This document shows positions 5,892-13,813 of a DNA stretch of 64,000 nt, piece after piece. Origin of the DNA: Leisingera sp. ANG-Vp (GTDB taxonomy: Bacteria; Pseudomonadota; Alphaproteobacteria; Rhodobacterales; Rhodobacteraceae); assembly GCF_000813725.1 (NCBI RefSeq), contig NZ_JWLD01000007.1:62001-126000 (forward strand). The letters run 5' to 3'. The position numbers were made by a program, and so were the translations under genes. The first letter of the stretch is position 1, and each line of letters opens with the position of its first letter. The notes under the pieces were generated by a model. It made no database searches, was not told where the DNA came from, and was given only the letters and a program-made list of their open reading frames with translations.

Positions 5892-7325
5892 TCAGAATTT
5901 TGATTCAACGCCAAGAGAGATGGAGAACTCTGAGGTCTCGAAGCGGCTGTGGTTCGAGAACCGCTTGCCAGCGCGCAGACGCAGCATCGGGGCAAATCCG
6001 GCGTAGTCGTATTCTTCAAAGAACACGTTCAAGTCGGCATAGGCGGAGGTGTCCTGGCGCCCGCCGGGGACTGGCTGCCAGGAATGGCCATTGTGAAAGG
6101 TGTGATGCGGGTAGTCCGCTGTACCTAGAATCAGCCCTGTGCTGATTTTGGCCGGTCCGATTTGGTGTCCAAGGGCATAGCCTACGCGGAAGGTCGCGGA
6201 TGTTCCGTCGGAATTATTGCTCTTGGCTTGAGTGTCGCGCAGTCCAAGCGAGAAACTCAGGCTGCTGCCGTTGCTGAGCTGGCGCGACAGCGACGCTCCA
6301 AGCCCAAAGACATCCGCTTCCAAGGTGGCAAAGCGCGGACTCAGCCTGTGTTCGGCGCTGCCGTCTATGGTCAGCCGGTTTTGCGGTGAAAGTGCCCAGC
6401 TGCGGGCTGCAGAGAGTTTGGCTAGATTATAGTTGCGCTCGCCGCCATACCAGGAGGTGGCACCAGTCAATGCGACGCGGGCACTGCCGCCTTGGCCAGG
6501 TTTGCCTGCCTTGAAGGCGTGGCTAAGGGTGATCTCGCCATAGGTCGAGCCGAATTCGGAGTTCCGCGGAACCGTTGTGCCGGTGCGGGCGGCCAGCTCA
6601 GCCGCCTGCGCCTTGGCGCTGTCAGAGAGGGCAACCCGCTGTACATACAGGCGGCCGCTAAGCGCGGTCAGGCTGGATTCGCTTTGCTGCAGGCGGCGGC
6701 TGACGCCTGCATCCAGCGTGCCGATGAGGCCGGACAGTGCAATGGCGCGCGGTCCGAACCTGTTTTCATGCGATGCCAGCCCGTCGATTTCCTGGGTGGC
6801 CGCGTCCGAGCCGTTGTTCACATTGCTGGAGGGTTTCACCCCTCCGCTGAGCCGGAACGACCAGGGGTTTATGCGCCGTAATGTCTCGTAATCCTTGGCA
6901 ATCAGCTTCTCGGCCTTTTCATCCGGTGCGTAGACGGCTGTGCGGCGCAGCCAGTATTGCGACAGCGTCGGGCTGCCGCCCTGAAAGGCGAGGCGGGAGG
7001 CCAGTTGGGCCATCTGGTAGCGGCTGGCGTCATCCGGGGCAAAACGGAAGGCGCGGGCAGCCGATTTGCGCCCTTTCTCCGGCTGACCGGTCCGGGCATA
7101 GGCGGCGGCTTGCAGATGCCAGGCAAGGTGATCCTTGCCATTTGCTTGCAGCAGGGAGCTTGATAGCTGAAGGGCCAGCTGCGGATTGCCGGAGTTCAGC
7201 GCATGCGCAGCCATGACCTGCCCCTGTTGCAGGGACAGATGCAGTTGCTGCTTGGCTGGTTCCTGTGCGTGAGGCTGGGCCGTTGCCAGGCCCAGCAACA
7301 ATAACGCCGCTGCGGCCTTGCGCAT
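5892..7325 (-). CDS. Slam-like outer-membrane protein (TPR domain plus beta-barrel)
   Basis: A 477-residue protein of the surface lipoprotein assembly modifier type (also called type XI secretion), which moves lipoproteins across the outer membrane to the cell surface. It starts with a signal peptide (MRKAAAALLLLGLATAQPHAQ). Residues 30-150 form TPR-like helices (LALQLSSSLLQANGKDHLAWHLQAAAYARTG is one repeat, shown in part), and from about residue 165 the sequence alternates as amphipathic beta strands and ends in the outer-membrane signature ...LGVESKF with C-terminal Phe. Its ATG lies three bases after the stop of a TbpB-like lipoprotein gene, its likely client. Slam families are best known in Neisseria and are less studied in alphaproteobacteria. 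Confidence 0.82.
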   Translation of the reverse strand: MRKAAAALLLLGLATAQPHAQEPAKQQLHLSLQQGQVMAAHALNSGNPQLALQLSSSLLQANGKDHLAWHLQAAAYARTGQPEKGRKSAARAFRFAPDDASRYQMAQLASRLAFQGGSPTLSQYWLRRTAVYAPDEKAEKLIAKDYETLRRINPWSFRLSGGVKPSSNVNNGSDAATQEIDGLASHENRFGPRAIALSGLIGTLDAGVSRRLQQSESSLTALSGRLYVQRVALSDSAKAQAAELAARTGTTVPRNSEFGSTYGEITLSHAFKAGKPGQGGSARVALTGATSWYGGERNYNLAKLSAARSWALSPQNRLTIDGSAEHRLSPRFATLEADVFGLGASLSRQLSNGSSLSFSLGLRDTQAKSNNSDGTSATFRVGYALGHQIGPAKISTGLILGTADYPHHTFHNGHSWQPVPGGRQDTSAYADLNVFFEEYDYAGFAPMLRLRAGKRFSNHSRFETSEFSISLGVESKF

Positions 7326-11091: not shown

Positions 11092-11628
11092 TCAGGCTTC
11101 TGCCGGTGCTGCGACCTTGCGGACCAGGGCGTCAGCCGACAGGGCGCCGGCACCTTTGAAGACCAGGACCAGCAGCAGGAAGCTCCACATCACGCGCTGG
11201 TCGACCAGTTCGATGGCATTGTTGAACAGGCTGCCCAGTTTCACGCCGTGGCCGGTGACGTCGACGATGGTCTGCACCCAGATGAAGCCGATGGTGCCAA
11301 GCGCGGCAAGGCGGGTCATCAGGCCAACAAGGATCAGCGCAGGCAGGACGTATTCGGCGACGGTGCCGGCAAAGATCACCAGGCGCTGGAAAATGTTCAG
11401 CTGGGTGACGTCGTAGAGCACCGCCTCAGCCGCGTGCGGGAAGATCTGGCCGAAGGCGCCGGCCGAGGGCGAGAAGATCGAGCCATCCGTCTTCAGGCCT
11501 GCGGAATTCCAGTAATAGACCAGCAGGACGGCGGCAAAAACAAGCCGCGCCAGAGTCGGGACGACGAAGTCCGACATCCGGTCGGCCTTGCCGAGGAGGG
11601 ATGTGTAAGTGGAAACAAGTGCGTGCAT
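11092..11628 (-). CDS. bufD: DoxX-family membrane protein of the bufferin operon
   Basis: A 178-residue inner-membrane protein with four hydrophobic segments, beginning RLVFAAVLLVYYWNSAG and with VTQLNIFQRLVIFAGTVAEY and ALILVGLMTRLAALGTIGF. These fit the DoxX fold. It is the last gene of a four-gene set; its ATG lies four bases after the stop of the DUF2063 gene. DoxX proteins commonly accompany bufferin precursor/maturase genes and are thought to take part in redox steps or membrane handling of the metallophore; the exact role is not settled. The symbol follows its place in the operon. Confidence 0.83.
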   Translation of the reverse strand: MHALVSTYTSLLGKADRMSDFVVPTLARLVFAAVLLVYYWNSAGLKTDGSIFSPSAGAFGQIFPHAAEAVLYDVTQLNIFQRLVIFAGTVAEYVLPALILVGLMTRLAALGTIGFIWVQTIVDVTGHGVKLGSLFNNAIELVDQRVMWSFLLLVLVFKGAGALSADALVRKVAAPAEA

Positions 11629-11632
11629 GGTC

Positions 11633-12388
11633 TTACCCTTTGCTATCCAGTCCTGTTATTGCGCCGCCCTGCAACAGCAGGGCCAGCGTGGCACCCAGGT
11701 CGAAGGTTTCGTCTTCGGCGGCGGCCTGTTCCAGGGCCTCGCCAATGGCAGCGCCCCCCATCAAGGCGCGGATCCAGACTGCGCCGCCGGGCGGCAGAAC
11801 CTGGGGAATGGGGTCGAATTCGGGGCGGGTGATCAGCACGTCCTGCGCCTGGGGCTCAGGCTTGGGCGCGCCGTCCTCGGTGTTGTAGCGCCAGAGGCCG
11901 TGGACCGGCCAGGGCGATCGCAGCACCTGCACGGCAGGCGCCAGCGCCAGGCGTGTGTTCATCAGCGCGTCCGGCGTCAGGGCGCCAAGCGCCTCAGGCG
12001 CGATCGGGGCTGCATCCGCGGCGTGGTAGGCACGGCGCAGGGCCAGCTCCAGCCGGGCGGTGTCGCCGAGGTAGCCAAGGTGCTTGAGCTGCTCCATGCC
12101 TTCCAGGAATTCCGGAAAATGCGCGCCGTAGAACATCATCAAAGGCGAGGAGGGCGGATGCTGGCGCAGGTAGATGCCTGCGAGCCCGTCCATGTTCTGT
12201 TTGCCCAGGAGCTTGGCAATCACCGGAAAGGCGCTGTGCATTGCTTCGGTCAGCGAGACAGCGACGTTGTTGCGGTAGACGCTGAACCGGCGGCCTGCGG
12301 GCTGCGCCAGGTGGTCGGTCAGACCATCCGGCACCGCTTGGCCCGCATCCATCATGGCGCGGGTGAAATCTGCCTGGGTGACGCTCAT
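11633..12388 (-). CDS. bufC: HvfC/BufC-type partner of the DUF692 maturase (DUF2063)
   Basis: A 251-residue protein with the DUF2063 domain in the first 100 residues (MSVTQADFTRAMMDAG, FSVYRNNVAVSLTEAMHSAFPVIAKLLG, LRQHPPSSPLMMFYGAHFPEFLE). In RiPP metallophore systems this protein binds the precursor peptide and presents it to the DUF692 enzyme, comparable to MbnC in methanobactin synthesis. The old label of the domain as DNA-binding is not supported by this context. Its start overlaps the stop of bufB by four bases (ATGA), so the two subunits are translated together, as expected for a complex. Confidence 0.9.
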   Translation of the reverse strand: MSVTQADFTRAMMDAGQAVPDGLTDHLAQPAGRRFSVYRNNVAVSLTEAMHSAFPVIAKLLGKQNMDGLAGIYLRQHPPSSPLMMFYGAHFPEFLEGMEQLKHLGYLGDTARLELALRRAYHAADAAPIAPEALGALTPDALMNTRLALAPAVQVLRSPWPVHGLWRYNTEDGAPKPEPQAQDVLITRPEFDPIPQVLPPGGAVWIRALMGGAAIGEALEQAAAEDETFDLGATLALLLQGGAITGLDSKG

Positions 12389-13239
12389 GCCGGGACGCGC
12401 TCCAGCGCGGTTGCGGCGCGGGCGGCCTCTGCCTCCAGCACCGGCCAGTCGGGGACGTCATTGTCCCATTCGATCAGCACCGGCCTGGGGCCGGACTTGG
12501 CCAATGTGTAGTCCAGCAGCGCCCAGACCGGGTCCACCACTTCGCGGCCGTGGCTGTCGATCAGCAGCGGGCGGCCATGGTCGTCTTCGTCCTCGTCATG
12601 GCCGCCGAGGTGGATTTCGCCGACCTTGTCCAGCGGGAAGGCGTCGATATAGCCCTGCGGCGAGAACTCCAGATTGGTGGCCGAGACAAAGACGTTGTTC
12701 ACGTCCAAAAGCAGCCCGCAGCCGGTGCGGCGGGAGATTTCACCCAGGAACTCAGGTTCCGACCAGGTGCTTTCGGCAAAGGCGAGATAGCTGGAGGGAT
12801 TTTCCAGCAGCATCCGGCGGCCGATTGTGTCCTGCAGCTGATCAATGTGGCTGCAGATACGCTGCAGGCTGGCATCCGTATAGGGCAGCGGCAGCAAGTC
12901 ATTGTAGAAATGGCTGTCGTGGGTGGACCAGGCCAGATGCTCGGAGAAGCTGGCGGGGTTCAGCCAGGAGACCAGGTGCTTGAGCCGGGCCAGGTGGTCT
13001 GCATCCAAGGGGCCTTCGCCGCCGATGGAGAGACCGACGCCATGCACCGACACGGCAAAGCGTTCGGAGAGATGGCGCAGCTGCGCGATTGGGCGGCCGC
13101 CGTCCCCCATGTAGTTTTCTGCGTGGATTTCCAGCCATTTGACGCTGCCCGCATCCTCGGTGATCTGGGCAAAATGCTGCGGCTTGTAGCCAACGCCGGG
13201 GGCGGCGGGCAGTTTGTCATGTGCAGCGGCGTCAAGCAT
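12385..13239 (-). CDS. bufB: DUF692 multinuclear iron oxidase, bufferin maturase
   Basis: A 284-residue TIM-barrel enzyme of the MNIO (DUF692) family, relatives of MbnB, which modify cysteines of ribosomal peptides using an iron cluster and oxygen. ATG at 13239 follows AGGACCC; a TTG upstream lies in the bufA hairpin and is less likely. Conserved metal-ligand regions are visible: WLEIHAENYMG, VSVHGVGLSIGGE, FSEHLAWSTHDSHF, MLLENPSSYL, LLLDVNNVFVSATN and GEIHLGGHDEDED. It follows the precursor gene bufA and overlaps bufC by four bases. In bufferins the product is expected to convert precursor cysteines to 5-thiooxazole groups that bind copper. Confidence 0.93.
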   Translation of the reverse strand: MLDAAAHDKLPAAPGVGYKPQHFAQITEDAGSVKWLEIHAENYMGDGGRPIAQLRHLSERFAVSVHGVGLSIGGEGPLDADHLARLKHLVSWLNPASFSEHLAWSTHDSHFYNDLLPLPYTDASLQRICSHIDQLQDTIGRRMLLENPSSYLAFAESTWSEPEFLGEISRRTGCGLLLDVNNVFVSATNLEFSPQGYIDAFPLDKVGEIHLGGHDEDEDDHGRPLLIDSHGREVVDPVWALLDYTLAKSGPRPVLIEWDNDVPDWPVLEAEAARAATALERVPA

Positions 13240-13265
13240 GGCGGGTCCTGTATCAGGGTGCAAAA

Positions 13266-13291
13266 GGGGCGGGAATTTGCACTCCCGCCCC
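13266..13291 (-). terminator. attenuator-like hairpin between bufA and bufB
   Basis: On the minus strand GGGGCGGGA pairs with TCCCGCCCC (arms 13283-13291 and 13266-13274, loop of eight bases) and is followed by TTTT at 13262-13265. It starts 17 bases after the bufA stop. This is a complete intrinsic terminator inside the operon, so only part of the transcripts should reach bufB. Confidence 0.75.
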
Positions 13292-13307
13292 GGTACTTTA
13301 GCGGCAA

Positions 13308-13613
13308 TTATGCCGGCAGGTCACGCTCCAGAGGCTCCAGCGAGCCGCTGCGTGCGGAACCGTCTGCCTGTGCCGGCAGTTCCAGGCCTTCGCAGGTGCC
13401 TGCGTCAACCAGGGTCCATGCGTTGCCCTGATAGTCGACGGTCGAGGTGCCCGCGCAAGTGGTGCCGGGGCCGGCAGCGCAGTCGTTCTGGCCTGCCAGC
13501 GAAACGCCGTAGCACTTTTCCTTGGTGGCGGCGGCGGCGGGGATGGTGGATGCAGCAGTCAGAGCAGCGGCAACGGCACCAGCAACGGCCAGGGATTTTG
13601 CGGTGTTCGACAT
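13308..13613 (-). CDS. bufA: bufferin precursor peptide (DUF2282)
   Basis: A 101-residue exported precursor of a copper-binding ribosomal peptide. The start at 13613 follows AAGGAA; an upstream in-frame start is less likely. Residues 1-29 are a signal peptide ([17 protein letters not shown]...AAAA), and the mature part has four cysteines at 34, 45, 53 and 74 in the family pattern [20 protein letters not shown] and GTCEG. The E-K-C-Y-G motif is the hallmark of BufA peptides. By analogy the middle cysteines are converted by BufB and the product sequesters copper in the periplasm; this strain's product has not been tested. It leads the operon and has a terminator-like hairpin behind it. Confidence 0.92.
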
Positions 13614-13672
13614 CTCGTAAATTCCTTTCGGTTTTAGCATGCGGTGTCGTGATGACAGGAAAACACTAACCC

Positions 13673-13689: not shown

Positions 13690-13787
13690 AAGTCACGAGG
13701 CCGTGTCTCACAGCTGCGTCAGAAAGGGTTGCACTGGTTTTGGGGGCAAGCCGTTGTTTTTATGTGTTTTCACGGTGCTGGAAATCA

Positions 13788-13813
13788 AAACGGCCCCCGA
13801 TTGGGGGCCGTTT
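13788..13813 (-). terminator. intrinsic terminator of thrS
   Basis: AAACGGCCCCC (13788-13798), loop of four, GGGGGCCGTTT (13803-13813). On the minus strand the stem is followed by TTTTGATTT, just past the end of thrS. Confidence 0.85.

Follow-up and report, generated by a model that had tools for sequence, protein, structure and literature searches.

A Buf1-type bufferin operon of Leisingera with a presumed tandem-palindrome operator in place of sigma-F/NrsF control

We asked to which kind of operon the four genes downstream of thrS belong in a 64-kb stretch of Leisingera DNA (the window), and by what their transcription is controlled. The bufA, bufB, bufC and DoxX-like genes lie in the order and at the place that a sequence-only reading had given them, all on the minus strand (Table 1). 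The four-base overlap of bufB and bufC (12385-12388) and the four-base gap between bufC and the DoxX-like gene (11629-11632) are as it had described, and the precursor carries the KEKCYG motif and the cysteines at 34, 45, 53 and 74. This residue numbering fits the 101-residue form with its ATG at 13613, whereas the end that had been given for the gene, 13640, belongs to an upstream ATG and a form of 110 residues. thrS is on the same strand as bufA, and a G+C-rich hairpin can be seen by eye between them (about 13787-13813). A terminator prediction, with four sites in all, did not include it, and shuffled sequence gives a similar number (2.8). Rfam and tRNA scans of the window returned no matches. 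Elsewhere in the window, 5895-7325 on the minus strand has a weak match to SlipAM, a surface lipoprotein assembly modifier (20.1 bits, cut-off 22).

Table 1. Features of the operon and its upstream region in window coordinates.
Feature	Coordinates	Strand	Evidence
bufA, DUF2282 (Buf1) precursor, 101 aa	13308..13613	-	Pfam, alignments
bufB, MNIO-type maturase (DUF692)	12385..13263	-	Pfam, NCBIfam, alignments
bufC, DUF2063 partner, predicted TglI/NGO1945-like fold	11633..12388	-	Pfam, structure model, fold search
DoxX-like gene, allele unlike 18/20 congeners	11092..11628	-	Pfam, identities, tree
Presumed double operator, two 14-bp palindromes	13693..13721	-	conservation, pattern searches

The bufferin assignment made earlier is borne out by family matches. 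The precursor matched Pfam DUF2282 (84.1 bits, cut-off 22.4), BufB matched both Pfam MbnB_TglH_ChrH (341.3 bits, cut-off 25) and the NCBIfam BufB equivalog (372.7 bits, cut-off 310), and BufC matched Pfam DUF2063 (82 bits, cut-off 27.2). Judged by these matches, the operon is a Buf1-type bufferin operon of a known and widespread kind. The bufB frame opens at TTG 13263; by eye, ATG 13239, which is preceded by AGGA, is the likelier start. In HvfB, residues N175, D242 and H244 are described as essential in the available part of PMC13419390. Their counterparts in BufB, matched through an alignment to 3bww with an inferred offset of one residue, would be N189, D236 and H238; these presumed metal-site residues are conserved in 97% or more of 79 BufB rows. 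BufB is 91-97% identical to the proteins of six congeners compared and 87% identical to that of a member of another genus (L117). A BufB of 85% identity occurs in a public record titled Nocardioides marinus (L161), a title that looks wrong.

BufC scored under the cut-off of the HvfC model (47.2 bits, cut-off 142). Because it had no significant match among PDB sequences, a fold search was made with a predicted structure (pLDDT 95.2), and the three best matches of this model were two TglI entries (one of them 8hci, E 1.9e-6) and NGO1945 (3dee, E 2.7e-4). Both TglI and NGO1945 are partners of MNIO enzymes, according to the portion of PMC12452194 at hand. The model of BufA was poor (pLDDT 62.5, pTM 0.47), too uncertain to bear on a presumed disulfide between C34 and C74.

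The sequence-only reading had singled out a "particular" precursor, with a long acidic and proline-rich tail, as what sets this operon apart. The tail after the last cysteine comprises residues 75-101 (27 residues; six acidic, two basic, three proline), and a tail of the same length and pattern was found in all 21 precursors of the genus, window included. We surveyed 83 precursors from 81 sources, which ruled out the tail as a novelty. Among the other 62 family precursors it measured 17-18 residues in seven and 22-28 in 53, and was longer in two (44 and 61). Since congeners and most family precursors carry comparable tails, that of BufA is not peculiar; it appears to be a normal part of the family and is perhaps, speculatively, a recognition element for BufBC. 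When 72 of the 83 precursors were aligned (11 congener copies were omitted), the four cysteines were invariant and the tail residues G90, S91 and L92 were at least 90% conserved. By eye, the N-terminus resembles an export signal, with a lysine, a hydrophobic stretch and an AAA site. Two of the loci (L105 and L107) have a tandem pair of bufA-like precursor genes before a single bufB.

DUF2282 was detected in 279 of the 394 family genomes sampled, in 21/21 of the genus and in 65 of 190 across the class, our own genome being counted each time. We fetched 80 loci, 20 from congeners and 60 from other family members, the latter a non-random choice of the better-scoring matches listed. Precursor, enzyme and partner are consecutive in 79 of the 81 sources including the window, as read by eye from stop-to-stop frames; in the other two (L099 and L131) the contig stops after the precursor. 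A DoxX-like match, in some cases weak, was present in 77/81. Class II tRNA synthetase genes are frequent neighbours of the operon, thrS being the one in the window: among 106 flanking proteins scanned, from the flanks of L073-L124, 28 had the core of this enzyme class.

The DoxX-like gene at the end of the operon has a different relationship to its congeners. Its product was sub-threshold both for Pfam DoxX (18.7 bits, cut-off 23.6) and for the HvfX model, and a congener protein at the same position, 53% identical to it, passed the DoxX cut-off with 30.7 bits. It is 98% and 85% identical to the proteins of two congeners (L068 and L055) and 92% identical to that of L117, the member of another genus, but only 53-54% identical to those of four other congeners compared. 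In a tree of DoxX-like proteins, whose bootstrap had not settled, the other 18 congeners formed one separate group. Because the DoxX-like protein matches that of another genus better than those of these four congeners while BufB is native, we read this as a probable in-place exchange of the gene at the operon end.

Alignment of the upstream regions of the genus revealed a conserved block, made up of two 14-bp copies of the palindrome TCACGnnnnCGTGA, at 13708-13721 (distal) and 13693-13706 (proximal). Their starts are 15 bp apart, 108 and 93 bp before the bufA ATG, and the pair spans 80-108 bp before it. Counting as a double site any pair whose scores add up to 15 or more of 20, we found it in 21/21 genus regions, in 39 of 53 other regions with a tail longer than 18 residues (the remaining 14 scored below 15) and in none of seven short-tail regions; shuffled controls gave a mean of 0.15 in 81 (20 rounds). 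With each site required to score at least 7 of 10, a spacing of 15 occurred in 59 of 74 long-tail regions, and any other spacing from 8 to 39 occurred in at most seven. A scan for sigma-70 promoters found none.

The double site is also rare outside this context. With zero mismatches it occurred once in our genome, and the pattern occurred once in the window (0.01 in shuffles). The next-best double site in the genome has two mismatches and lies inside a coding frame that reads like ribosomal protein S4. The single palindrome with one mismatch was at background (75 per strand, against 104 for a reversed-pattern control). It has two exact copies in the genome, and the one examined (L216) sits where a coding frame ends. 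A 15-base match (L213) overlaps the end of one frame, but since another frame on the same strand begins about 34 bases further on, it may yet be a further site. Across the family, the pattern with at most one mismatch was found in 111 of 394 genomes, and the reversed control in one among the matches listed. At this stringency it was present in 110 of the 279 genomes with DUF2282 (and absent from the other 169) versus 1 of the 115 without. Thirty loci bearing the pattern were inspected; bufA was present in 27 and followed the site directly in 26, and in L281 the site lies after bufA. Three loci have a double site without bufA, at 1501-1529 in each, which may be chance. By eye, the frames nearby resemble a TetR-type regulator and a cytochrome b561 (L290), an L,D-transpeptidase (L283), and a pair of which one is Ada-like and the other OmpA-like (L289).

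The closest described system is that of Caulobacter, where CC3254-CC3257 (CCNA_03363-03366) comprise the same four families in the same order (PMC3511200, PMC8224329, as far as excerpted). That operon is described as induced by copper (PMC8224329) and has a sigma-F promoter, GTAACC-N16-CGAA (PMC3511200), together with NrsF, whereas here neither was found and the double palindrome stands instead. A GTAAC...CGAA promoter was found before bufA in 0/21 upstream regions of the genus, window included, and NrsF had no match in our genome (99.65% complete), in a search that detected the Caulobacter control. We tested 63 of the 80 fetched genomes for NrsF (10 of the 20 congeners and 53 of the 60 others), and 16 had it. 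Among the 47 that lacked it, 41 had the double site, six had neither element and none had a strict sigma-F promoter; among the 16, by contrast, nine had the strict promoter, two the double site and five neither (Fisher p 9.7e-8 for double site versus NrsF, a value that ignores relatedness). Of the two genomes with both NrsF and the double site, one is just at threshold with a single good site (G074), and in the other NrsF lies about 52 kb from bufA (G299).

On a BufB tree, 13 of the 16 NrsF genomes fell into one clade (100/100) and the label needs four changes; the bootstrap of this tree had not settled and the count is rough. This clade and these four changes suggest that the two groups parted early and that a few switches came later. 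In 15 of the 16 NrsF genomes the region upstream of bufA contains one palindrome with a score of 9 or 10 out of 10, so a palindrome-binding factor may be older than the loss of sigma-F control. Across the class, 30 loci were scanned and 29 rows obtained (L251 gave none; one row is a family member). Sigma-F-like promoters were present in 11/29 and a palindrome scoring at least 9 in three.

We then looked for a regulator linked to the operon. An ArsR-like frame apart, no dominant one was seen in the 60 largest frame clusters from 161 sources. That ArsR-like frame occurs in 9/161 loci; in L180 it occupies 55-858, about 3 kb upstream of the operon there. Besides the tRNA synthetase core, the Pfam scan of 106 of 171 picked flanking proteins found sigma-70 region 2 in five and NrsF in four, and no other recurrent regulator among the families listed (25 of 63). 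From the conservation of the site we infer that an unlinked regulator acts on the double palindrome. The fuller version of this, that the bufferin operon escaped sigma-F/NrsF control in the main lineage of the Rhodobacteraceae and gained a dedicated unlinked factor that binds two copies of TCACGnnnnCGTGA 15 bp apart, we hold at slightly better than even odds. A literature search, mostly without full texts, found no paper on this control of bufferins.

The palindromes could instead be part of a promoter, or another conserved element with no dedicated regulator. We consider this rather unlikely. It would agree with the lack of a linked regulator among the flanking genes analysed and with the failure of single palindromes (at most one mismatch) to be enriched in the genome. 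An operator is favoured by the dyad symmetry and its 15-bp repeat, by the near restriction of the pattern to genomes with DUF2282 and by its position relative to the bufA ATG.

Other described operons resemble this one in part. The available text on Sinorhizobium meliloti SMb20530-SMb20527 gives a similar row of membrane protein, DUF692, DUF2063 and a fourth gene; unlike in the window, that operon is under RpoE7/EcfR7 control, with a promoter containing GTAAC and CGAA (PMC6180224). The GIG operons of Cupriavidus metallidurans and Legionella pneumophila contain related families and are induced by gold and copper (PMC8224329, PMC5413113, in excerpt). They belong to distant taxa and, going by description only, their control is apparently not a double palindrome. 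The Haemophilus hvf (oxazolin) and Fontimonas fon clusters also combine an MNIO with a DUF2063 partner and install thiooxazoles, but their precursors carry EGKCG repeats where that of the window is DUF2282 (PMC12668002, in part). A methanobactin-like or oxazolin-like product of the window operon would fit the further matches of BufB to the models of MbnB (52.2 bits, cut-off 325) and HvfB (228.9 bits, cut-off 360). Both scores are under their cut-offs while that for BufB is above its own, and the precursor is a DUF2282 protein in which no EGKCG repeats were seen by eye, which makes such a product highly improbable.

An operon of this kind might also mainly serve another metal or stress, such as gold, cadmium, chromate or oxidative stress, and not copper. 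Responses of homologous operons are described to chromate and cadmium (PMC3511200) and to gold as well as copper (PMC5413113). The Cupriavidus metallidurans cluster is said to be without effect on copper resistance, though other systems may mask it (PMC8224329), and the presence of doxX has been taken as a hint of other stresses (PMC12452194). Against this, copper impairs the growth of a Caulobacter sigF mutant, and the Caulobacter genes for DUF2282, DUF692 and the partner are tabulated as copper-induced under every condition, that for DoxX under a single one and by a laxer test (PMC8224329). On these sources, each available in part, a main role other than copper seems unlikely, at long odds.

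The reading that we prefer takes the operon as a Buf1-type bufferin operon. The putative export signal of BufA would direct the peptide out of the cytoplasm, after BufB, an iron oxidase, and its partner BufC had turned Cys 45 and 53 into thiooxazoles in the cytoplasm. The outer cysteines, 34 and 74, would pair as a disulfide, and the exported peptide would hold excess copper in the periplasm, with the DoxX-like protein in an assisting role. Modification, disulfide and copper binding are attributed to BufA by analogy with homologues. For a mature peptide beginning ATKEKC, a guessed cleavage site, two thiooxazoles (8.06 Da) and a disulfide (2.02 Da) would lower the calculated monoisotopic mass from 7314.376 to 7304.298. 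For Buf1, modification of the central cysteines and a disulfide between the first and the last are described (PMC12452194, as excerpted), and for related products thiooxazoles have been assigned, with copper binding for members of the EGKCG type (PMC12668002, likewise). Transcription would depend not on sigma-F/NrsF but on an unlinked regulator at the tandem palindromes upstream of bufA. As one explanation covering cytoplasmic modification, periplasmic copper holding and sigma-F/NrsF-free control through the palindromes, we give this a probability of roughly 0.88. The earlier interpretation thus keeps its bufferin and loses its peculiar tail; it had overlooked the double palindrome, the missing sigma-F/NrsF and the apparently replaced DoxX-like gene.

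The operon itself adds a further member to a large known family, and its control is the part worth following. Because the double site is almost confined to genomes with bufferin genes, a widespread group of marine bacteria may sense copper stress by a route of its own. If a dedicated factor does bind there, identifying it would bring to light a new sensor, either of the peptide product or of copper stress, for which the 29-bp site would serve as a direct bait.
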